In this document: positions 2,253 to 11,265 of the stretch, piece after piece
Position numbering within the stretch: the first letter of the stretch is position 1
Layout of the letters: every line of letters begins with the position of its first letter
Source of the DNA: Clostridia bacterium
GTDB taxonomy: Bacteria > Bacillota_A > Clostridia > Oscillospirales > CAG-272
Assembly: GCA_017552165.1 (NCBI GenBank)
Contig: JAFZCF010000107.1
Coordinates: 1-11,265 of the forward strand
Length of the DNA stretch: 11,265 nucleotides
Reading direction: 5' to 3'
Position numbers and translations under genes: made by a program
The notes under the pieces: model-generated
Told to the model about the DNA's origin: nothing
What the model saw: only the letters and a program-made list of their open reading frames with translations
The model's database searches: none

Positions 2253-2972
2253 ATGCCGGTCACGGTTGAAAATCCCGTTCTCGTAATGAAGCGGGTTGAG
2301 GTGAAATACCTCATAAGCCCCGGACAGGTCGATTTCGTCCGGGAAAAGCTCGCGGGCCGCATGGAGATCGACCGTTTCGGTCTGACCTCGATCGGCACGC
2401 TGTATTACGACACCCCGGACTACCGTCTCATAAACAGATCGATAGAGAATCCGGAGTTCAAGGAAAAGATCCGCCTGCGCTCCTACGGGCTCGCCACGGC
2501 GGACTCTCCCGTGTTCCTTGAGATAAAGCGTAAAGCGTACGGCCTTGTATACAAAAGGCGCGTCAAATCGACGATACCCCTCGTCAACAGTTTTTTTGCT
2601 GGCGTCGGCGACATATGCTCGGAGGGGCAGATAAACAGCGAGCTGAAATACTGCCGCGATATGTACGGCGAGCTCGTCCCGTCGTGCCTCATAATCTACG
2701 ACAGGACGGCGTATTCCGAGCCGGGCGGCGGTCTCCGCCTGACGATAGACGGGAATCCGAGATACAGGATGAGCGAACTCGACCTGACCGTCTCCATGGA
2801 CGGGACAAGTCTTCTCCCTCCCGGCTGGGCGGTCCTTGAGATAAAGGTCCAGGACGCCATGCCGCTCTGGCTCTGCTCGCTCCTTTCCGAGGGAAAAATA
2901 TACAAGGGAAGCTTCTCGAAATACGGGGAAGCGTATAAAAAACAGATAATTGGCGCCCGCGCGGCGATATGA
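2253..2972 (+). CDS. VTC-domain (polyphosphate polymerase-type) protein
   Basis: This 239-residue protein reads as one complete VTC domain, the catalytic fold of yeast Vtc4, which makes polyphosphate from ATP inside a beta-barrel tunnel. Expected tunnel residues are present in order: 'RVEVKYL' (R14, E16, K18), 'YYDT' (51-54), 'KIRLRSYG' (R74, R76), 'FLEIKRK' (E90, K92), 'YKRRV' (K101), R151, 'TIDGN' (D166), 'AVLEIKVQ' (E196, K198) and the terminal 'KGSFSKYGEAY' (K218, S220, K223). No signal peptide or membrane segment is visible, so it is probably held at the membrane by the neighbouring DUF4956 protein. The start at 2253 follows GAGG at 2242-2245, which overlaps the kinase stop. The in-frame ATG at 2286 lies just before the first essential motif and is a weaker choice. 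The related CYTH/triphosphatase fold is the main alternative, but the 'KGSFSKY' ending favours VTC. Confidence 0.88.
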   Translation: MPVTVENPVLVMKRVEVKYLISPGQVDFVREKLAGRMEIDRFGLTSIGTLYYDTPDYRLINRSIENPEFKEKIRLRSYGLATADSPVFLEIKRKAYGLVYKRRVKSTIPLVNSFFAGVGDICSEGQINSELKYCRDMYGELVPSCLIIYDRTAYSEPGGGLRLTIDGNPRYRMSELDLTVSMDGTSLLPPGWAVLEIKVQDAMPLWLCSLLSEGKIYKGSFSKYGEAYKKQIIGARAAI

Positions 2973-2993
2973 CGGCGCCGGAAGGAGATACAG

Positions 2994-3665
2994 ATGTTTG
3001 ATTCGATTTACACGACTGAGGTCACGGCCGGGACGTTTTTTATAATGGCGCTCGCGGCCGTCGTCTCGGGCCTTCTCTTCGCGTGGATAATGTCGTTCAG
3101 AATGAGATCGAAGCCCCGCTTCTTTATCGTGATCGGCTTCATGCCTTTTATCGTCGCCTCGATAATCACCTTCGTGAACGGCAATATAGGCGCGGGGATC
3201 GCCGTCGGCGGCGCCTTCGGGCTGACGAGGTTCCGTTCGGCTCAGGGGTCGGCGGACGAGATTGCGGCGATACTCATCGCGATGACGTCCGGGATCATCT
3301 TCGGTATGGGATACCTCGCTTACGGGATAATCGTCCTGATCGTCCTCGCCGCGCTGTATTTCCTCATCTCGGGCAGCGGTATATTCGTTCACAAAAACGC
3401 GGCGGAGGAGCGGCTCCTGCGCATAACCATCCCCGAGTCGCTCGAATACAACGGCGTTTTTGACGACACTTTTGACCACTATCTGAGGTCGTATTCTCAG
3501 GAGGGGGTAAAGACCACGGGCATGGGCTCAATGTTCCGCCTGTCGTACAAAATTGTTATGAAGAACAGAGACGAAGAGAAGGCCTTCATCGACGAGCTGA
3601 GGACAAAAAACGGCAATCTCGAGATCGCCGTTCTCCCGTACACCGAGCCCGAAAACCGGCTCTGA
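2994..3665 (+). CDS. DUF4956 family membrane protein
   Basis: This 223-residue protein carries several membrane segments in the first 130 residues (roughly 11-34, 42-62, 64-76 and 91-128). The family's hallmark loop 'GAFGLTRFRSAQGSADEI' lies at 73-90. A soluble C-terminal part of about 90 residues follows, with 'RLLRITIPESLEYNGVFDD'. The family has no proven reaction. It is often found beside VTC-domain genes, and by analogy with the membrane subunits of the yeast VTC complex it may anchor the polymerase or take part in moving polyphosphate; that is inference. A strong ribosome binding site, AAGGAG at 2982-2987, sits six bases before the ATG. The gene is last in the operon, and the hairpin at 3678-3713 follows 13 bases after its stop. 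The CotH gene often seen with such pairs is absent here. Confidence 0.85.
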   Translation: MFDSIYTTEVTAGTFFIMALAAVVSGLLFAWIMSFRMRSKPRFFIVIGFMPFIVASIITFVNGNIGAGIAVGGAFGLTRFRSAQGSADEIAAILIAMTSGIIFGMGYLAYGIIVLIVLAALYFLISGSGIFVHKNAAEERLLRITIPESLEYNGVFDDTFDHYLRSYSQEGVKTTGMGSMFRLSYKIVMKNRDEEKAFIDELRTKNGNLEIAVLPYTEPENRL

Positions 3666-3677
3666 ATATTCGCCGAC

Positions 3678-3713
3678 AAAGGGGCGGGCGTCGCCGTTGA
3701 CGCCCGCCCCTTT
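3678..3713 (+). terminator. Operon terminator, perfect 15-bp hairpin
   Basis: AAAGGGGCGGGCGTC (3678-3692) pairs perfectly with 3699-3713 around a six-base loop GCCGTT. The downstream T run is short, only the TTT that belongs to the stem, so release may be less efficient than in a classic intrinsic terminator. The A/T ends of the stem would also let it work partly in reverse. The next promoter's TTGACA begins only four bases on, at 3718. Confidence 0.8.
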
Positions 3714-3854: not shown

Positions 3855-3971
3855 ATGACTACTTTCGTCAATTTTATGACAACTTGCGAAAAATCGCAAA
3901 AAAGTTTGTCCGGTTTTGGCCCTTTTCTCCGTCTTATATACAGAGAGACCTCGAAAGGAGGACGCAATTGA
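3855..3971 (+). other. Possible leader ORF coupled to the first sigma gene
   Basis: A 38-codon frame from ATG 3855 (or TTG 3849) follows a GGAGG at 3834-3838. It ends in TGA at 3969-3971, which overlaps the TTG start of the sigma gene at 3968. The overlap would allow translational coupling. The peptide has no recognisable family and the frame also spans the ECF-like promoter near 3910-3940, so it would be translated only from the upstream TTGACA promoter. It may equally be chance. Confidence 0.2.
3888..3940 (+). promoter_or_regulatory. ECF-like promoter region of the first sigma gene
   Basis: An upstream block ATGACAACTTGCGAAAAAT (3876-3894) matches blocks before the other two sigma genes. 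Further down, CCGG (3910-3913), 16 bases and CGTC (3930-3933) followed by TTATATA give an ECF-style -35/-10 layout, since ECF -10 elements often contain CGTA or CGTC. The second module has CCGG-N16-CGTA in the same arrangement. The exact -35 is uncertain. Confidence 0.45.
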
Positions 3972-4516
3972 ATATATTCAGCGGCGCGGCGTGCGCGGCC
4001 GCGCTCAGAAAGATCGCCGCGGGAGACATGAGCGGGCTCGAGCTCATATACGAAAAAATGGGCAGGCAGATATACACCTTTGCCCTGGGCATCCTCGGCA
4101 GCGAGGCCGAGGCCGAGGACGTCATGCAGGAAACGTTTTTAAGAATAATGGATCACGCCGGTACCTGGCGGGGAGGGCAGGCGAGGGCCTGGATAATGGC
4201 GATAACACGCAACCTTGCCCTCGAACGGCTGAGGGGCAGGCGCGCGTTTGAGGGGAGCGTCAGGGATGACGGGTACTTCCCGCCCGACAGGATCGAAAAA
4301 GACGATATCGAACGGGCTCTGGACAGCGTCAGCCGGGACGACAGGCAGATCGTGCTGCTGCGCGCCGTCCACCGGTTCAAATATTCCGAGATATCTAAGA
4401 TAACGGGATACAGCGAGGAGGCGGCGCGGAAGCGCTACGTCCGGGCAATCGAAAAAATGAGAAAAACACTCAAAGGAGAACACGATAATGAACGTACCAA
4501 AGAAAATAAGGGATAA
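3968..4516 (+). CDS. ECF-type RNA polymerase sigma factor, module 1
   Basis: I place the start at TTG 3968 rather than the upstream ATG 3884. AGGAGG lies at 3956-3961, six bases before it, and the resulting 182-residue protein begins 'xNIFSGAACAAALRKIAAGDMSG', in register with the 180- and 179-residue paralogues at 7786 and 10587. Region 2 spans about residues 22-85 ('YEKMGRQIYTFALGILG', 'AEDVMQETFLRIM', then 'ARAWIMAITRNLALERL'). Region 4 covers about 115-165, with the helix-turn-helix 'YSEISKITGYSEEAARKRY'. It would direct RNA polymerase to ECF-type promoters when released from its partner. The gene overlaps the following membrane protein gene by 29 bases. It is more diverged than the other two copies, with a shorter linker after region 2. 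No zinc or extra C-terminal domain is seen. Confidence 0.9.
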   Translation: MNIFSGAACAAALRKIAAGDMSGLELIYEKMGRQIYTFALGILGSEAEAEDVMQETFLRIMDHAGTWRGGQARAWIMAITRNLALERLRGRRAFEGSVRDDGYFPPDRIEKDDIERALDSVSRDDRQIVLLRAVHRFKYSEISKITGYSEEAARKRYVRAIEKMRKTLKGEHDNERTKENKG

Positions 4517-6551
4517 ATACTCCTCCGTCGACGTGCCGCCGGCGGAGAACGTCCTCCCCCGGGAGGCGGTCGCGCAGAGCAGTAAAAAGGAAGAGCGCCG
4601 CGGGAACGTAAAGCTGTTCCTCGAGCTCGCGGCGAGCGCCGCGGCGTTATTTCTGATAATCGGGGCGGTCCTCGCGGGGCAGGGCGCCCTCAGGAGGCAG
4701 AACCAGCTTCCGCTCGGCGAGCCCGGGAACGGGGGATCGGATATACTCGTAGATACGGAGAACCTGCCTGGCGACACTACCTCCGCCCCTTCGACCGAGA
4801 CGGGCGACAAATCGACCGCCGGTCATGCGACCGGAAATCCGGACACGTCGAACGTGCCGGAGATCACGACTGCCGGTCCTCCGTTCACCACCGAGGAGAC
4901 GGAGGACGTGACGTCGGAGCCCGACACGACCACGCCGCACGTCGTTGAGCCGACCGGAAACTTCGACACAACGGCGGCTCCGGAGCCCGACGCGCTCGGG
5001 CTGACCGGCGACGAGACCATAGTCGAGCTTAACGAAAAGCTCGTCGGCAAAAAGTTCAGCGAGCTCGAAAAGTATTTCGGCGAGTCGGTGCGCTCTGTGG
5101 ACGGCGATGCGGCGAACAAAAAGCTCGCGAAGAAAAACTGGTCGCTTTCCTCACTCGAAGGGGTAAAACTGTACAAAATCCCGTTCGATAGCAAAAATTA
5201 TCTCAACGTTGGCGTCGAAAAGAGCAGCGGCGAGGTCCTGTGGGTCTATCCCGCTTATTCGTACGAGGACGACGCGTATGACGTCCTTCTCCTGAGGGAA
5301 AACTACAGGTATGACGAAGACCCGGTGATGCCGCTTTCCGAGTTCCCGCCGACGGGCAATTTCATGCTCGGCGACCCGGAATACGAGGTGCTCTGGGGCA
5401 TCATGGGACTCAAAGAAGCCGACCTTACGTCACGGTGGGGCGCTCCGTCGTCAAGCGGGGTATGGAGCACCGTATACGGGACGTACACCGTAAAGATAAC
5501 GTTCAATTCAAAGGGATACGCGGTAGATCTGGACTGTGAAAAAGCGGCGAATCCCCAGCGCAACGGCGTGAAGATGCCGGCATCTCTCGAGGCCGCCGTC
5601 AAAATGACGGATAAAGAACTCACCTCGGCGCTGAAAAACATGCCGGGTTACGCGCTCACCGAGCTGTTCGGAACAGAAGGAAGGGCAAAGCTTCTCATGC
5701 CAGGACAGGACGGGTATACCGCCAATGTGTGGGTGAGTGGTAAAAAGGCGGTCGTTATCCGTATGGACAGCAGAGGATACGCGACGTCCGCCACAGTTAA
5801 AAACGTTTCCGATATGCTTTATGACGGAAAGAATGAATATATCAGTCCTCTGTATTACGATAACAATCCGATGCTGATGGTCGTGTCGCGCAGTTCTAAT
5901 CTCCCAAGACGGGAGATATCCCGGAAATGGATGGACGCCCTGCTTGCAGCGGAATACAACAATATGTTCGTTCCCTCCGATAACTGCGGCGCATATACCG
6001 TCGATGCTGATTTTTTGCCTGCCGGCTCGGAAATCGTATATTTCGGCGATCCGTTCGGCAATGATATAACTTACCTGTGTCATAACGGCAGATTTATCAT
6101 GCTCACGTTCTGTCCAAAGGACGAAAACGGAAACTATGTTTTTGACAGCGACGGATATATAAACGTTTCTGCAAAGCCGGTTGCGAGGTTTATGCCTGTG
6201 TATGACGCAAAAAACAATCCGGTAGGGTTTTTCTACTCATACGGAGAAAGTATGACCTCGGCGCGGCTCGGTTTTTGTGATCTGATCACGGGCGAAACCG
6301 CAGACCTCGCTACGATAACCGCTTATCTCGGTATGATGACATTAAACGATAAGACAGTCACGATCACTAACGGTTCGGGAACGTTCACGGTTCAGGCAAA
6401 CACTCTGACCGATCTGGTAATACTCGCAATGACAGCGGAAGGATACGAGATATTTATCGGAAATATCAGTGACATCCCGCTGGAAATACCCACCGGCGCG
6501 AAATACACGCTTTCGATCAAGTCATCGGGCGTTGAAATAACAGCGGGATAA
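4488..6551 (+). CDS. Single-pass membrane sensor, probable anti-sigma factor, module 1
   Basis: This 687-residue protein begins inside the sigma gene (ATG 4488; AAGGAG at 4473-4478). A cytoplasmic head of about 42 residues carries 'KIRDKYSSVDVP' and 'NVLP', shared with the proteins at 8325 and 11123. One membrane segment lies at about 42-64. A Thr/Pro/Glu-rich, probably extended linker follows at about 90-165, and then a large extracytoplasmic part. Three stretches there look like one repeated pattern, a helix with 'L..fG' then a beta hairpin: near 186-252 ('LVGKKFSELEKYFGES'), 304-350 ('GLKEADLTSRWGAP...GYAVDL') and 379-440 ('YALTELFGTEG...GYATSATV'). This resembles SmpA/OmlA- or BLIP-like folds. 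The rest is unrecognised. No H-xxx-C-xx-C zinc motif is present. The anti-sigma role rests on gene order, overlap and topology. GC falls from about 70% (4621-4680) to about 38% (5821-5880) within the gene. Confidence 0.75.
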   Translation: MNVPKKIRDKYSSVDVPPAENVLPREAVAQSSKKEERRGNVKLFLELAASAAALFLIIGAVLAGQGALRRQNQLPLGEPGNGGSDILVDTENLPGDTTSAPSTETGDKSTAGHATGNPDTSNVPEITTAGPPFTTEETEDVTSEPDTTTPHVVEPTGNFDTTAAPEPDALGLTGDETIVELNEKLVGKKFSELEKYFGESVRSVDGDAANKKLAKKNWSLSSLEGVKLYKIPFDSKNYLNVGVEKSSGEVLWVYPAYSYEDDAYDVLLLRENYRYDEDPVMPLSEFPPTGNFMLGDPEYEVLWGIMGLKEADLTSRWGAPSSSGVWSTVYGTYTVKITFNSKGYAVDLDCEKAANPQRNGVKMPASLEAAVKMTDKELTSALKNMPGYALTELFGTEGRAKLLMPGQDGYTANVWVSGKKAVVIRMDSRGYATSATVKNVSDMLYDGKNEYISPLYYDNNPMLMVVSRSSNLPRREISRKWMDALLAAEYNNMFVPSDNCGAYTVDADFLPAGSEIVYFGDPFGNDITYLCHNGRFIMLTFCPKDENGNYVFDSDGYINVSAKPVARFMPVYDAKNNPVGFFYSYGESMTSARLGFCDLITGETADLATITAYLGMMTLNDKTVTITNGSGTFTVQANTLTDLVILAMTAEGYEIFIGNISDIPLEIPTGAKYTLSIKSSGVEITAG

Positions 6552-6569
6552 CCCTTGAAAGAGAAAAGA

Positions 6570-7511
6570 ATGAAAAGCAAGAGATTTTTATGCCTGCTTA
6601 TGGCGGCGGCGATTCTGATTTTATCCGCCGCATCCTGCGGTGAAAAACAGACGTACGGCGACGACGTCGACCCCTTTGAAATGCCGACAAGTTTTGAGCC
6701 GGGCTGCCGGCTTACGGTGAACCGTCTAAACGAGCTTTGGCTGAGCGCAGTCGAGGGAATAAAAAACATATTCCGCAATCTTTATATTTACGGAAACCCG
6801 GTGGAATATAACGATTATCCGCTCGCCGAAAAGATGGGTTTTGACCCCGAAAGCTACACAGCGAGCGACGACGCGAGAAACTATGAAAAAGATGACGGCG
6901 CAATCTCTCTCACACTCGACAAGTACGGAAGGTATTACTGGAAAAACCGTGCCGCCGGGGAGCCCGGAGAGGAAAAGGACGACGACGAACTTGAAAAAAT
7001 CGTCAGGGATTTTCTTGAAAGATACGAACTTTTTAGCCGGTATTCCGGTGACTGTTCTCTGAGAACAAGCGGACGAAGTTATTTGACACATCGGGACGAT
7101 GAAGGCAAGGAGGTATCTGTCCCGACGGAGGTAACCTTTGTATGCGACGGAACGCTGGACGGCGTTCGCTATCTTTACGGAAAAATAAGCGTCGTTATCC
7201 GCGTCGACGGAGTGATAAAGAGCGTTACAAGCCAGGCCCTGGATTTTGCATCAAGAAAACGCGCCGATATGATATCGGTATCCGAGGTGTTTGACATGAT
7301 CGAACAGGGAAAACTCGTAAATGTGGGAGGGCAGGTGAGCGGAACGCTTACCGTGAGCGTATTATACGTTGAATACTGGACCGAAAATGACAAAAACGGC
7401 ATGCCGACTCTTCAGCCGGTTTACAGTTACTACGGCACGGTTCCCGTTGACAACGGATTTTCGAAAACGACGGAGCTGACGTTGGGGTCGGTACAGGCCA
7501 ACCGCTTCTGA
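6570..7511 (+). CDS. Predicted lipoprotein of unknown function, module 1
   Basis: From ATG 6570 the protein has 313 residues. A TTG at 6555 would add five residues, but ATG gives a cleaner signal peptide and has an AAAGAG-like site before it. The N-terminus 'MKSKRFLCLLMAAAILILS' followed by 'AASCG' is a lipoprotein signal with cysteine at 23. Alanine rather than leucine at -3 makes the lipobox slightly atypical. The mature protein is acidic, with two parts: one rich in Tyr and Asp ('NPVEYNDYPLAEKMGFDPESY') and one with beta-rich stretches ('TLDGVRYLYGKISVVIRVDG', 'LTVSVLYVEYW'). I do not recognise a family. Only 18 bases separate it from the sensor gene, so it is probably co-transcribed and may work with that sensor at the outer face of the membrane. 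Module 2 has no counterpart. Confidence 0.75.
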   Translation: MKSKRFLCLLMAAAILILSAASCGEKQTYGDDVDPFEMPTSFEPGCRLTVNRLNELWLSAVEGIKNIFRNLYIYGNPVEYNDYPLAEKMGFDPESYTASDDARNYEKDDGAISLTLDKYGRYYWKNRAAGEPGEEKDDDELEKIVRDFLERYELFSRYSGDCSLRTSGRSYLTHRDDEGKEVSVPTEVTFVCDGTLDGVRYLYGKISVVIRVDGVIKSVTSQALDFASRKRADMISVSEVFDMIEQGKLVNVGGQVSGTLTVSVLYVEYWTENDKNGMPTLQPVYSYYGTVPVDNGFSKTTELTLGSVQANRF

Positions 7512-7539
7512 TTTTTTCAGTTAAAAAGCTATAACCGAA

Positions 7540-7618
7540 ACGCGGGCGGCGTTATGGATATGGATCGCCCCCCGCGTGAGTACGGAACGTACTCAAAAGC
7601 CGCGCCGTCCGTGGCGCG
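7540..7618 (+). other. Run of three hairpins after the lipoprotein gene
   Basis: Three inverted repeats follow one another. 7540-7551 pairs with 7566-7577, eleven pairs with one C-C mismatch. 7578-7584 pairs with 7588-7594, seven perfect pairs around GAA. 7601-7606 pairs with 7613-7618, six perfect pairs. They precede the terminator at 7621. They could be a stable mRNA 3' end or a small structured RNA. I do not recognise a known family. Confidence 0.5.
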
Positions 7619-7620
7619 CA

Positions 7621-7655
7621 CCCCCGTCGGAAATAGGGCGCCGGCGGGGGTTTTT
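7621..7655 (+). terminator. Intrinsic terminator of module 1
   Basis: CCCCCGTCGG (7621-7630) pairs with CCGGCGGGGG (7641-7650), ten pairs with one G-T wobble, followed by TTTTT at 7651-7655. The ten-base loop AAATAGGGCG is nearly the same as the loop of a hairpin at 10350-10380. Confidence 0.88.
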
Positions 7656-7704
7656 CGCGCTCCGCCGCAATGGGTGCGAAAAAAGAACTTCTTTCGCCTA
7701 TAAA

Positions 7705-7756
7705 GTGACGAAACGCGAAAAAGTCCGACCGGTTTTCGCCTTTCCGGACGTATAAT
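7705..7756 (+). promoter_or_regulatory. ECF-like promoter region of the second sigma gene
   Basis: The block GTGACGAAACGCGAAAAAG (7705-7723) matches blocks before the other two sigma genes. Then CCGG (7729-7732), 16 bases and CGTA (7749-7752) overlap a perfect TATAAT at 7751-7756. No TTGACA-like hexamer sits 17 bases upstream of the TATAAT, so use by an ECF sigma or an activator is plausible. The start would be near 7763, giving a leader of about 23 bases. Confidence 0.55.
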
Positions 7757-7785
7757 ATAACAGAGGGTCACGACGGAGGAAAAAC

Positions 7786-8328
7786 GTGGGTGCTTTTGAA
7801 AGTGCGGCGCTCGGAGCCGCGTTGAAGAAAATAGCTTCCGGCGATATGAGCGGGATAGATCTTATTTACGATCGCCTCGGAAGGCAGATCTACACGCTCG
7901 TCCTGTCCGTTGTCGGCAATGAGACCGACGCGGAGGACGCCATGCAGGGAACTTTCATAAAGATCATGAACTCCGCCGGGACTTTTGCCGAGACGCGCGG
8001 CTCGGCAAAAACCTGGATCCTCTCGGTGGCGAGACACGCGGCGTTCGACCTTCTCAAAAAGAAGGAGAGATCGCGCGTGGAGGAGCTCGGGGAGGACGTC
8101 CCGGATACCGACGGGTATTCCGGGGTAGAGGACCGGGACGAGGCGGAACGAATACTCGGCGTTCTCGACGAAACGGAGCGGCAGATAGTCGTGCTCCGCG
8201 CCGCAGAGCGGCTGAAATTCAAAGAGATCGCCGCGATAATCGGCAGATCGGAGGAGCGTACGAGAAAGAAGTACGCGGAGGCAATCGAAAAAATCAGGGA
8301 AAACAGAAAAACGGGTGGTCTGAAATGA
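7786..8328 (+). CDS. ECF-type RNA polymerase sigma factor, module 2
   Basis: This 180-residue protein starts at GTG 7786 after GGAGG at 7775-7779. It shares the opening 'GAFESAALGAALKKIASGDMSG' pattern with its two paralogues. Region 2 lies at about 22-88 ('LIYDRLGRQIYTLVLSVVG', 'AEDAMQGTFIKIMNSAGT', 'AKTWILSVARHAAFDLL'). A variable acidic linker ('EELGEDVPDTDGY') follows, and region 4 lies at about 125-172 with the helix-turn-helix 'FKEIAAIIGRSEERTRKKY'. In region 2 the usual 'QETF' reads 'QGTF', a small departure. It is closer to the module 3 copy than to module 1. Its stop overlaps the start of the membrane protein gene (ATGA), implying coupled translation with a partner. The family is certain; the promoters it recognises are unknown, though its own upstream region is a candidate. 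Confidence 0.92.
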   Translation: MGAFESAALGAALKKIASGDMSGIDLIYDRLGRQIYTLVLSVVGNETDAEDAMQGTFIKIMNSAGTFAETRGSAKTWILSVARHAAFDLLKKKERSRVEELGEDVPDTDGYSGVEDRDEAERILGVLDETERQIVVLRAAERLKFKEIAAIIGRSEERTRKKYAEAIEKIRENRKTGGLK

Positions 8329-10310
8329 AGGAACTCAATATAATCAGAAAAAAGTACGCCTCGGCGGAGGTGCCGGAGAGGTCCGCGGTATATCCTCCCG
8401 GAGTGAGCGCAAAAGCGCCGAAACGCGGGGGGAACGGCCGACTTGCTATTGAACTCGCCGCGGGCGGCGTGCTGCTTTTCGTCATGGTCCTCGCCGTCGC
8501 GATCGGTCCGGGCCTTATCCGCAAGGATTACGTCGAGCCGGGCGTGACGGGCGATACAAAGGCGCTTGTCGAACCGCATGCGGCGGACGGTGTATGGTAT
8601 TGCAATAATATTGGTTCCATCGGAGAACCGCCGTTTTCTCTGCCGGACGGATCGCCCGAAATAAGCGGCAAGTATTATTCATATAAAAAATTCTCGGTAT
8701 CGAACTACAATAAATTTATTTCAAGCCTTACGGACTCGGGTTTTGAGCTCGCAACGAAGAAATACAGTAGTTTTCTTTTTCGTGACGATTGCATGATTTT
8801 TTTACAGTATGATGCGTATGAGACTTTAAGCCTGTCGTGGTATTCCAGAAGTCGGTATGCAGAAGACGACGGCGATACATCCTCGCTTTTGTGGTATGAC
8901 AACAAAGACAGTCTTTCAAAAATCAAAATACACCCGATAAACATATCTCCGGAAGGGTTCTATGATCTTACCGGGGGACAGATTTATGCGATCCCCGTTT
9001 ACTCATACGACCGTTATAACTCCGCCGGACAAGAAGATATTAACGGGTCGTACGATTGTTCGGTATGCTTTGTGAAGGACAATAAGACCTGGCAGGCCTC
9101 AATGGAATCAGTTGCCGTCTGCGACATTGACGGGGATCAAATAAATGACGTACTGTTGCTGTCATACGGCCCGACCAGCGGAGTATTCACTTTCAGAGTC
9201 GTTGCGGTAACCGAAAGCGGAGTGTATGATACTGTCTTCGGAGCTATGGAGTATTACGACCTCGGCTTTGCGAATGAAGACGGTAAGATTGTTGTTGAAG
9301 GTGTCGGGAATGACCTCAAACAGCATTTCTTCGAAATCGTCTTTTCAAAAAACGGTCAAAAACCGGTCGTAATGTTATATGACAATGGTGAACCGCTCCC
9401 GACATGGGTACTGCAGGGTGTACTTGATTATCAAAGTCACATCAATGATAAATACTGGTTTGACTACCTGGGTCTCAACGAAAGGGCGTTAGTTGAAGAA
9501 GAGCCGCAAAGTTTAATGCTGGAATACAGAATCACAGCCGACGATGCGGACAGTCCTATATGGAGCGCGTCGGACGGCGAACTTATCCCGTTTGTAATAC
9601 GGAGAACACGGTATCTGGACTCCTCGGATTACAGGAGCGCACTGAAAAAAATTGTGGATAAAGGCACCGAAGCAAATCAGGAAACAAGATATCGTTTGGT
9701 AGCTGAAAAAACCGGTCTCACATATGAAACAGTCAAAAATCTGATTGAAAATGCAGAATATATGGGCAGCAACATAGATGAGCTTTACGATATCGCCGGG
9801 CAGGAGTACGTCGATCTGGTTCTGTCCACGCGGCCTTCGCAGGAAGTGGTTGACGCTTATAATGCCGTGATTTATGACGAACGTTATAAAACGGCGTATT
9901 TGGACGCTATCCGCGACCCTGACAATCTGCTTTTCTACAAGGACGACGCGGAAAAGCTGAAAAACGAGCGATTTGAGGAGATGAAGACGCTTGTCGAAAA
10001 CGAGGGCTGTATGATAGTTGCTGATCTGAACGACGAGAAATGGGCAAACACGCTTGCCTCGCTCAGGGGATATTGCGTTGCCTTCGGGACCGCTGCACAG
10101 GTGAAGTCTCTTCTTGGCAAACTCGACTATGAAACGGAATTGTTCTACGCTCCCCGAAAACCGTTCGGCGACGATTGGCTGTTTGGATACGTCGATCCCG
10201 ATACTGTCAACTGGGAGGCAATACAGGACAAATGGCCCAATCAGCTCTTGGATGAGGAAGCATTGTATTTCCGGCAAAATATAAATTCCAAGGCGCTTTA
10301 TATTAAGTAA
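8325..10310 (+). CDS. Single-pass membrane sensor, probable anti-sigma factor, module 2
   Basis: This 661-residue protein has the shared head 'IIRKKYASAEVPERSAVYPP' (6-25), one membrane segment at about 40-62, then some 600 extracytoplasmic residues unlike those of the module 1 protein. A calcium-loop-like 'DIDGDQINDVLLL' at 267-279 fits an FG-GAP/VCBS-type beta-propeller blade (D267, D269, D271, N274/D275). The C-terminal third (about 430-600) is helical and charged ('YRSALKKIVDKGTEANQET', 'DAEKLKNERFEEMKTLVENE') and unrecognised. There is no zinc-binding anti-sigma motif. The start overlaps the sigma stop by ATGA; the ribosome binding site is weak, which suits coupling. Base composition falls from about 60% GC in the sigma gene (8041-8100) to about 32% at 8761-8820. 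The anti-sigma or sensor role is inferred from position, topology and the shared head only. Confidence 0.75.
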   Translation: MKELNIIRKKYASAEVPERSAVYPPGVSAKAPKRGGNGRLAIELAAGGVLLFVMVLAVAIGPGLIRKDYVEPGVTGDTKALVEPHAADGVWYCNNIGSIGEPPFSLPDGSPEISGKYYSYKKFSVSNYNKFISSLTDSGFELATKKYSSFLFRDDCMIFLQYDAYETLSLSWYSRSRYAEDDGDTSSLLWYDNKDSLSKIKIHPINISPEGFYDLTGGQIYAIPVYSYDRYNSAGQEDINGSYDCSVCFVKDNKTWQASMESVAVCDIDGDQINDVLLLSYGPTSGVFTFRVVAVTESGVYDTVFGAMEYYDLGFANEDGKIVVEGVGNDLKQHFFEIVFSKNGQKPVVMLYDNGEPLPTWVLQGVLDYQSHINDKYWFDYLGLNERALVEEEPQSLMLEYRITADDADSPIWSASDGELIPFVIRRTRYLDSSDYRSALKKIVDKGTEANQETRYRLVAEKTGLTYETVKNLIENAEYMGSNIDELYDIAGQEYVDLVLSTRPSQEVVDAYNAVIYDERYKTAYLDAIRDPDNLLFYKDDAEKLKNERFEEMKTLVENEGCMIVADLNDEKWANTLASLRGYCVAFGTAAQVKSLLGKLDYETELFYAPRKPFGDDWLFGYVDPDTVNWEAIQDKWPNQLLDEEALYFRQNINSKALYIK

Positions 10311-10349
10311 TCATTTTTTGAGGAAATCACTCAAAATGAATAACGTCCG

Positions 10350-10380
10350 ACGGTCTCGGGAGTAGGGCACCGAGAGCCGT
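10350..10380 (+). other. Hairpin with conserved RARTAGGGCR loop
   Basis: ACGGTCTCGG (10350-10359) pairs with 10370-10380 with one bulged G. The loop GAGTAGGGCA and its closing CGG/CCG match the loop of the module 1 terminator hairpin (7628-7643) at 13 of 16 positions, the rest being purine changes. No known RNA family recognised. Confidence 0.5.
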
Positions 10381-10414
10381 AAAAGCGCCCGGCGGGTCTC
10401 CCACCGGCGCTTTT
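10381..10414 (+). terminator. Terminator of module 2
   Basis: AAAAGCGCC (10381-10389) pairs perfectly with GGCGCTTTT (10406-10414). An inner GGCGGG/CCCACC stem with one mismatch extends it. The TTTT belongs to the stem and is followed by GCTTTG, so it could act in both directions. Confidence 0.75.
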
Positions 10415-10439
10415 GCTTTGCGGAAATGCTCGCCGAGAT

Positions 10440-10462
10440 CCGCCCCGTGTGGGAGGTTTTTT
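10440..10462 (+). terminator. Second terminator-like hairpin
   Basis: CCGCCC (10440-10445) pairs with GGGAGG (10451-10456) with one G-A mismatch and a five-base loop, followed at once by six T (10457-10462). It is a shorter backup to the hairpin at 10381. Confidence 0.5.
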
Positions 10463-10493
10463 GTTGCGATCTATGACATTATTTGACTGTTAT

Positions 10494-10555
10494 GTGACGA
10501 ATTAATGAAAAAGCTCCGGACAGAAAAGCGTTTTTTGCGTCTTTAAACGTATAAT
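10494..10555 (+). promoter_or_regulatory. ECF-like promoter region of the third sigma gene
   Basis: GTGACGAATTAATGAAAAAG (10494-10513) matches the upstream blocks of the other two sigma genes. CGTA (10548-10551) overlaps a perfect TATAAT (10550-10555), preceded about 17 bases up by GCGTTTTTT rather than CCGGTTTT. Upstream lie TATGAC (10472), TTTGAC (10482) and TGTGAC (10493), spaced 10 and 11 bases. The predicted start is near 10562. Confidence 0.5.
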
Positions 10556-10586
10556 ATAGTGAAGGACCACGGAAGGAGAGCGGATC

Positions 10587-11126
10587 ATGGGCGTATTTGA
10601 CAGCGCGGCTTGCGACGCCGCGATGAAAAAGATCGTGACCGGAGATATGGACGGCGTCGATATCATATACAAATATCTCGGGAAAAAGATTTATACGCTC
10701 GCGCTTTCCATTCTCGGAAACGAGACCGCGGCGGAGGATGTGATGCAGGAAACGTTTCTCAGGATCATGAACTCCGCCGACACCTACGTTCCGGAGCGCG
10801 GCGGCGCAAAGACCTGGATCCTTTCGGTCGCGAGGAATATCGCGATCGACAGGGAACGTAAGGAGCACGCCGGGCTGTGGGCGGATCTGAGCGAGGACGT
10901 CCCGGCGGAGGACGTTTACGCGCGTATCGACGACGCCGACGAGGCGGAGCGCATTCTCGGGACTCTCGACGTTACCGAGAAGCAGATCGTTGTTCTCCGC
11001 GTCGTGCAGCGGCTCAAATGGAAGGAGATCGCCGGGATAATCGGCAGGTCGGAGAGCCACACGAGAAAGAAGTTCTCGGACGCTGTCAATAAGATAAGAA
11101 AAGTAACGGGGGAAGGGAAAAAATGA
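10587..11126 (+). CDS. ECF-type RNA polymerase sigma factor, module 3
   Basis: This 179-residue protein starts at ATG 10587 after GGAG at 10575-10578. Region 2 covers about 22-88 ('IIYKYLGKKIYTLALSILG', 'AEDVMQETFLRIMNSADT', 'AKTWILSVARNIAIDRER'). Region 4 covers about 125-172, with the helix-turn-helix 'WKEIAGIIGRSESHTRKKF'. The first 22 residues 'MGVFDSAACDAAMKKIVTGD' keep the paralogues' opening. The intact 'QETF' motif and an acidic linker 'LSEDVPAEDVYARIDDADEA' make it the most standard copy. The stop overlaps the next ATG (ATGA at 11123-11126), as in module 2. It is close to the module 2 factor in the linker and in region 4, which suggests the later of two duplications. Promoter specificity is unknown. 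Confidence 0.92.
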   Translation: MGVFDSAACDAAMKKIVTGDMDGVDIIYKYLGKKIYTLALSILGNETAAEDVMQETFLRIMNSADTYVPERGGAKTWILSVARNIAIDRERKEHAGLWADLSEDVPAEDVYARIDDADEAERILGTLDVTEKQIVVLRVVQRLKWKEIAGIIGRSESHTRKKFSDAVNKIRKVTGEGKK

Positions 11127-11265
11127 AGGCATTCAGAACGATACGCAGGAAGTTTGATTCCGTTAAAGTTCCGGAACAGTCGGCGGTATATCCGCCGAAA
11201 CTGCTCGAGAGGAAAAAGGAGCAGAAAGCAGACAAATCGCTGCTTTTTGAGCTGCTTGCGGGCGG
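11123..11265 (+). CDS. Membrane sensor, probable anti-sigma factor, module 3 (cut by window end)
   Basis: Only 47 codons are visible, from ATG 11123, which overlaps the sigma stop and follows GGGGGAAGGG at 11108-11117. The peptide begins 'MKAFRTIRRKFDSVKVP' and continues 'EQSAVYPPKLLE', a basic stretch, then 'LLFELLAGG' where the membrane segment should begin. This is the same head as in the proteins at 4488 and 8325, so the gene is a third family member. Its extracytoplasmic part lies outside the window. It is identified solely by the shared head and gene order. Confidence 0.78.
   Translation, partial: MKAFRTIRRKFDSVKVPEQSAVYPPKLLERKKEQKADKSLLFELLAG

Follow-up and report, generated by a model that had tools for sequence, protein, structure and literature searches.

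Three tandem ECF sigma factor/membrane anti-sigma candidate units with apparently exchanged sensor parts in a Clostridia bacterium

The stretch of DNA analysed here—11,265 nt, called the window below—is probably an entire contig, since a database form of its second membrane protein (P0005) has 11265 as longest contig. Its plus strand carries an array ordered as sigma 1, m1, a lipoprotein-like gene, sigma 2, m2, sigma 3 and m3, the last being cut by the window end. As the preliminary description stated, the array comprises three co-directional two-gene units, in which a sigma factor of 182, 180 or 179 residues is encoded by a gene overlapping that of a single-pass membrane protein, the overlaps being 29 nt in unit 1 and 4 nt in units 2 and 3. 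That description passed over the lipoprotein-like gene, which follows m1 after 3 nt, is probably co-transcribed with it and has no family at curated cut-off in Pfam and NCBIfam. The genes of the array are:

3968..4516, plus strand: ECF sigma factor 1 (TTG start, 182 aa)
4488..6551, plus strand: membrane anti-sigma candidate m1 (687 aa)
6555..7511, plus strand: lipoprotein-like secreted protein (318 aa; LSAASC lipobox by eye)
7786..8328, plus strand: ECF sigma factor 2 (GTG start, 180 aa)
8325..10310, plus strand: membrane anti-sigma candidate m2 (661 aa)
10587..11126, plus strand: ECF sigma factor 3 (ATG start, 179 aa)
11123..11265, plus strand: membrane anti-sigma candidate m3, first 47 residues (gene cut by the window end)

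The array is preceded on the same strand by genes for, in order, a response-regulator-like protein, a histidine-kinase-like protein, a VTC-domain protein and a weak relative of DUF4956 (Pfam). The receiver-like protein (460-1053), remaining below the Pfam cut-off, adjoins the histidine-kinase-like gene (1050-2243), the product of which has a good HATPase_c match and a weak HisKA one (E 0.17); by eye, its acceptor histidine is apparently absent, ESNLKVP standing where the usual SHELxTP motif would be expected. The VTC-domain gene (2253-3665), of the polyphosphate polymerase type, adjoins the gene for the DUF4956-like membrane protein.

Concerning the sigma factors, all three score above the Pfam cut-offs for Sigma70_r2 and at least one Sigma70 region-4 model, no other family exceeding its cut-off. 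The two stretches cover residues 27-95 and 118-172 in sigma 2, 28-93 and 119-172 in sigma 3, and 55-120 and 140-194 in sigma 1, the last numbered on the longer 210-aa ORF form used for the Pfam scan in place of the 182-aa one. All three thus consist of sigma2 and sigma4 domains only, connected by a linker of under 50 residues, which is the make-up defining ECF sigma factors in PMC8103513. They are paralogous, as had been claimed: sigma 1 is 49% identical to both sigma 2 and sigma 3 (80/164 and 79/161 aligned residues), sigma 2 and sigma 3 being 61% identical (105/172), and the pairwise local scores of 371, 357 and 534 lie far above the shuffle maxima of 57, 52 and 61 (300 shuffles each; sigma 1 without its first codon in these alignments). 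The SigI family, which lies outside the ECF group, and the RsgI_N head family were matched in Pfam by neither the sigmas nor m1 and m2 at E up to 1; SigI is also absent from the NCBIfam matches of the sigmas (best 25 of 95-101), m1 and m2 having no NCBIfam match at all.

A maximum-likelihood tree of 16 sigma rows, from which P0006, P0007 (identical to sigma 2) and P0014 (a possible chimera) were omitted, groups sigma 1 with P0010 and P0012 (97/93), sigma 2 with P0009 (100/99) and sigma 3 with P0008 (100/100). P0007 is found on 4 contigs, the longest being 19992. The deeper order is unsure, as some branches are long and four of the 13 inner forks remain open; the sigma of L001—a locus from a Clostridia metagenome-assembled genome (MAG) of water-buffalo rumen—is not resolved together with sigma 1. 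All three window sigmas join relatives encoded on other contigs; the duplications would be older than these splits, and the array appears to be a set of old paralogs whose sensors change, rather than the product of a recent expansion. The earlier picture of an expanding locus is not supported by this grouping; its other half, that of interchangeable sensors, finds support in the mosaic relatives described below. As a separate observation made by eye, the P0014 sigma is unlike P0009 in its N-terminal part up to the EADAEDAMQETF region and identical to it beyond; it may be a chimera, natural or assembly-made.

The membrane partners share one plan. In m1, a head of about residues 1-40 is followed by a single membrane helix at about 42-62 and a T/P/E-rich stalk at about 75-185 (by eye), and both m1 and m2 show one hydropathy peak, near residues 42-62. 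Comparison of the first 70 residues (47 for m3) gave pair scores of 106, 58 and 95 against shuffle maxima of 49, 40 and 34, so the reported paralogy of the heads holds for about 40 residues. The outside domains differ, as also reported, to judge by the two complete ectodomains: m1 against m2 scores 51, below the shuffle maximum of 65, i.e. homology is undetectable. The m1 protein has no Pfam, NCBIfam or PDB match, its ectodomain being unclassified, and a PDB sequence search with m2 returned chance-level matches only. AlphaFold2 models of m2 (6-row alignment, mean pLDDT 30.8) and m1 (single sequence, 40.1) were unusable.

An alignment of 21 heads, chosen by the author from the window, protein matches and fetched loci, yields the rough consensus K-(K/R)-I-(K/R)-(K/R)-x-(Y/F)-x-S ... 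(V/I)-P-x-x-x-x-V-(L/Y)-P, to which L074a, L121, L122 and L130 fit only partially. The outside parts carried by these heads are a VWA domain, a GLUG-like one (by eye), unclassified or none. The short partners L076, L080, L081 and L082 (61-69 residues after trimming) have the first half of the head and no ectodomain. When nine partners were scanned for families, VWA was found in L119, L120 and L079, the other six remaining below all cut-offs; one of the nine head-bearing proteins, L119, also weakly matches an NCBIfam 'anti-sigma factor' model (E 0.0014, 18.7 bits against a cut-off of 100). With VWA in some partners and no recognised family in others, one head type is thus combined with several outside parts.

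According to PMC7406223, class I (ASDI) anti-sigma domains measure 101 +/- 33 residues, the zinc-binding ones carrying Hx3Cx2C, and those of class II (CnrY-like) have under 50 residues forming two helices that contact sigma4 and sigma2. Here, only about 40 residues precede the membrane helix and no Hx3Cx2C was seen by eye in the m1, m2 and m3 heads; the head is within the class II size, the likeness to CnrY being one of size, not of sequence comparison. ECF sigma genes are typically co-transcribed with a cognate anti-sigma gene; as in the three window units, the related sigma gene of L001 overlaps a membrane-protein gene. The membrane helix starts with ELAA in m1, m2 and P0126, EFAA in L001 and ELLA in m3; such an E(L/F)AA-like sequence may serve as a degradation tag after release.

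How the partners are built can be followed in relatives of m2, which is divided as follows:

8325..8531, plus strand: m2 residues 1-69, i.e. tip (1-20) and near-constant linker/membrane segment (21-69)
8577..9422, plus strand: m2 ectodomain block A, residues 85-366
9423..10307, plus strand: m2 ectodomain block B, residues 367-661

Of 198 candidates compared with m2 residues 1-70, 5 proteins, including that of the window itself, matched at E<=0.01, and the query of whole m2 found 8 proteins among 7990 candidates scored. P0001-P0004 have 47, 44, 46 and 43 of the 49 residues of the linker/membrane segment in common with m2, and 12, 12, 7 and 5 of the 20 tip residues, respectively. In P0003 and P0004, block B (93-94% identical to that of m2) comes soon after the membrane segment, block A being absent. 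P0001 and P0002 agree with each other in the tip (20/20) and in a C-terminal block (92% over 311 residues) that is absent from m2, and differ between the membrane segment and that block. The P0002 ectodomain is not entirely without relation to m2: in that intervening stretch, 116 of its residues match part of block B (28%, E 1e-6; no such match in P0001), which indicates that slow divergence also plays a part.

Block A recurs in still other settings. P0126 joins it (63%) to an m3-type head (38/47), it occurs as a lipoprotein in P0127 and in a gene of L098 (both 63%), and P0128 carries it (62%) behind an M56/BlaR1-like domain, which hints at an envelope-related input. A more distant block A lipoprotein in L099 (40%) adjoins a pair of genes for an XRE/sigma4-like regulator and a single-pass protein (by eye). 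Counterparts of the C-terminal block of P0001 likewise exist in L099, within a small lipoprotein (57% over 120), and in L101, within an M56 protein (44% over 95). Among 394 genomes of the order, block A was detected in eight (E<=0.001), two of the matches being strong (G414, 65%; G687, 41%). Membrane proteins without a sigma neighbour had been named beforehand as evidence against the sigma/sensor pairing. Ectodomain blocks do occur without the head, as in the L098 lipoprotein and P0128, and, being headless, these proteins favour modularity and are not evidence against the pairing; the one true head from a head-only search, in G001, sits beside a sigma gene.

Base composition at third codon positions (GC3) adds to this. 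The L098 block A gene has a GC3 of 0.43, six of its seven measured neighbours having 0.70-0.77 and one 0.41, which suggests an imported piece. In m2, a GC3 breakpoint at codon 76 was reached in 4/500 permutations; as genes without such a joint also break (histidine kinase 12/500, sigma 1 0/500, VTC 131/500, m1 at codon 394 0/500), the m2 break gives weak support for a joint. Between sigma and ectodomain, GC3 falls by 0.06 within unit 1 and by 0.18 within unit 2, the range in 11 units of relatives being -0.03 to 0.19.

The pairing of P0001-P0004 and P0126 with sigmas is deduced from equal contig figures: the longest contig is 8006 for both P0009 and P0001, 14558 for both P0008 and P0002, and 40019 for P0011, P0016 and P0126. 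If equal figures mean the same contigs, then the sigma 2 relative P0009 (86%) goes with a near-identical linker but another ectodomain, and more than one unit is present on at least two further contigs. In a shifted reading frame, the DNA at the m3 start encodes EGIQNDTQEV-stop, which is exactly how P0008 ends; the partner of P0008 would therefore start like m3, and P0002, the tip of which is MKELDII, would belong to another unit.

These mosaics might be chimeras of metagenome assembly, in which near-identical linker DNA has joined one head to the ectodomain of another. The mosaic proteins are likely of metagenomic origin (P0002 is from a MAG) and their common segment is about 150 nt; the combination of tip, linker and block B is, however, found in two non-identical proteins from different contigs (P0003, P0004), that of tip, linker and C-terminal block is repeated in P0001 and P0002, in P0126 the linker in front of block A is of the m3 type and differs from that of m2, and block A also stands behind such unrelated N-termini as a lipoprotein signal and M56. 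Artefactual joining is accordingly considered very unlikely. Equally improbable is that nothing was exchanged, and that the ectodomains diverged past recognition after duplication under conservation of the head and membrane segment. Plain divergence does occur—the three units of G060 have homologous ectodomains at 42-44%, and the part of P0002 distantly related to block B (28% over 116) is of the same kind—but it would hardly leave block A 61-63% identical to that of m2 in three other settings (m3-type head, lipoprotein and M56 protein), block B 93-94% identical under a different tip, and an abrupt drop of identity at the tip/linker border. Exchange of ectodomain blocks, with recombination near the conserved linker/membrane segment as its probable cause, is therefore preferred.

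A promoter-like element of the type GTCCGR-N16-CGTNWTAT is located 37-39 nt upstream of all three sigma starts and of the related L001 sigma. The sites in the window are:

3908..3937, plus strand: promoter-like site of unit 1, GTCCGG-N16-CGTCTTAT, CGT 38 nt before the sigma 1 start (training site)
7727..7756, plus strand: promoter-like site of unit 2, GACCGG-N16-CGTATAAT, CGT 37 nt before the sigma 2 start (training site)
10526..10555, plus strand: weaker promoter-like site of unit 3, AAGCGT-N16-CGTATAAT, CGT 39 nt before the sigma 3 start (non-training, p=0.035)

The -35/-10 forms, with 16 nt between, are GTCCGG/CGTC for sigma 1, GACCGG/CGTA for sigma 2, AAGCGT/CGTA for sigma 3 and GTTGGA/CGTC for L001. 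In these four cases the -10 form tracks sigma identity, CGTC being common to sigma 1 and the L001 sigma (58% identical) and CGTA to sigma 2 and sigma 3 (61%). The classical ECF promoter boxes are AAC (-35) and CGT (-10) in PMC8103513, which also has later ECF definitions narrowed to the sigma2/sigma4 make-up; at spacing 16, the window has GTCCGG, GACCGG and AAGCGT instead of an AAC -35.

A weight matrix (6-N16-8) was trained on sigma 1, sigma 2 and L001 and applied with 1000 dinucleotide shuffles per relative. Its layout and the exact pattern were set after the upstream regions had been viewed and some starts were set by hand, the scoring being therefore not blind; the blind portion consists of four later relatives, one of them at p<0.01, with L085 and L130 outside the test. 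Five of the ten long-partner relatives outside the training set have the element at p<0.01 (L074a 0.003, L074b 0.006, L075 0.001, L079 0.002, L120 0.002), L074a, L074b and L075 all being from one genome, G060; in the other five it is non-significant (L077 0.72, L086 0.53, L119 0.19, L121 0.97, L122 0.42), and where the partner is small or was not detected (seven relatives), p is never below 0.05. As background, 265 ORF upstream regions from 23 loci gave two scores of at least 10.4, the lowest of the five significant ones, both before sigma genes (L075, L074b). The exact pattern matches twice in G001 (control 0), one match being the training site and the other preceding a second ECF gene on the same contig, 61 nt from its start (element p=0.006); three times in G060, two of the matches being before sigma genes and the control count being also 3; and nowhere in G129. 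For some members of the family, the recurrence of the element before the sigma genes of relatives speaks for self-activation, from a promoter whose -35 departs from the ECF norm. One G060 match (L128, 4437-4466) lies about 150 nt upstream of an FtsX-like permease gene; this gene may belong to the regulon, or the match may be due to chance, control matches being equally many.

As to the ends of transcription units, inverted repeats were seen by eye at about 7621-7650, followed by T5, before unit 2 and at 10381-10414 before unit 3; a consensus terminator scan has neither of these and gives 10439-10453 before unit 3. It lists 19 terminator-like sites in the window against a shuffle mean of 10.1. 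A 36-nt inverted repeat is present at 3678-3713.

How widespread the units are was followed by searches at several levels. The sigma search hit one of nine genomes of the genus (G001 itself), at least 13 of 395 of the family at E<=1e-25 and at least two of 391 of the class at E<=1e-33 (G001, G1008). As to whether tandem arrays recur, G060 is the only one among the 13 family genomes to show two units within 3 kb, and such arrays therefore seem uncommon in the family. The G060 pair (L074, 563-5355) again joins sigma genes to single-pass partners, the ectodomains of which are homologous though diverged (44%), and a third copy lies elsewhere in that genome (L075), the ectodomains of the three being 42-44% identical. 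In L001, positions 5055-7400 hold a serpin-like gene (by eye), located after the related sigma/membrane unit, and then a second, different ECF/membrane pair, which has the promoter-like element in its upstream region. The head-only search in 394 genomes of the order gave six matches, inspection of which covered G001 and L087-L089 (for the latter, minus-strand ORFs of at least 100 aa), with L072 and L073 outside. The head matches of L087, L088 and L089 were rejected, two being zinc-ribbon-type membrane proteins (by eye) and one having no credible gene. It should be noted that nearly all head-bearing loci were found via the sigma gene, so that the count of head/sigma adjacency is biased. Phage contigs gave distant ECF matches only (8 phage records, all under 60% identity), and viral contigs two loci only, at 25-27%.

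Based on the above, the array probably represents three autonomous, self-activating ECF sigma/anti-sigma transcription units, in which sensor parts, as the quickly changing component, have been exchanged on old paralogs. The head of about 40 residues—a basic helix, then the VP...V(L/Y)P motif—would bind its own sigma and keep it inactive in a short, class II-like manner. A change sensed by the outside part would lead, probably through proteolysis of the inhibitor, to the freeing of the sigma; by analogy with anti-sigma systems covered in PMC7593790 and PMC12203970, cleavage outside at site 1, intramembrane cleavage and breakdown of the freed head by Clp would be expected. The freed sigma would then drive its own operon from the GTCCGR-N16-CGTNWTAT-type promoter, together with further genes, and replacement of the ectodomain blocks by recombination near the linker/membrane segment would provide the same switch with a new input. 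The heads might instead activate or recruit the sigma, or the sigmas might share heads freely as one pooled switch. P0126 hints that tips tolerate different sigmas: its tip is of the m3 type, 24 of the 25 N-terminal residues agreeing (by eye), and its contig figure of 40019 is otherwise found only with the sigmas P0011 (61% to sigma 3) and P0016 (43%) among the matches listed (best 120 of 219). Against this, every unit has one overlapping partner per sigma, and membrane-bound anti-sigma control is given as the most widespread ECF mechanism in PMC8103513; activation or pooling is thus rated unlikely. Within the reading of three inhibitor-controlled units, it is conceivable, though somewhat less than an even chance, that, within a group of Clostridia living in the gut, ectodomain blocks are passed horizontally between the heads of ECF anti-sigma factors, receptors of the BlaR1/M56 type and free lipoproteins, recombining at the near-constant linker/membrane segment and so rewiring old tandem switches with the output unchanged.

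The SigW-RsiW and SigV-RsiV systems of B. subtilis are membrane-anchored ECF sigma/anti-sigma pairs. The present units are like them in having an ECF sigma of sigma2 and sigma4 domains only, a single-pass partner that has a cytoplasmic head and is encoded by an overlapping gene, and a promoter-like site with a CGT -10 element; they are unlike them in the head, too short for class I and without a zinc signature, in the -35 (GTCCGR, not AAC), in the row of three paralogous units and in the large unclassified ectodomains, apparently exchanged. The closest parallel found, as described in PMC4711584 and PMC12203970, is SigI/RsgI of Clostridium thermocellum, with several paralogous pairs in the genome of one member of the Clostridia, one head type, varied outside sensors and self-recognised promoters. 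RsgI-N is, however, about 165 residues long, and RsgI1-6 have known carbohydrate-binding modules (PMC4711584), whereas no family is recognised here. With BlaR1/MecR1 (M56), the outside block is common to both receptor types, as P0128 carries block A behind its M56 domain; the output of BlaR1/MecR1, according to PMC7593790, is not a sigma factor but a protease whose target is a repressor. The Pfam scan found no beta-lactamase-like sensor family in P0128 or m2. Sensor swapping is well known in two-component systems. Among ECF anti-sigma factors, no description of sensor exchange was found in titles and abstract openings, mostly without subscription papers; there, sequence divergence would usually hide such swapping. 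In this locus and its relatives, the constant and variable parts are cleanly separable, which lets one ask which residues set the sigma-head pairing and whether the ectodomains are plug-in parts, and the units may be usable in laboratory strains as building blocks for synthetic switches.
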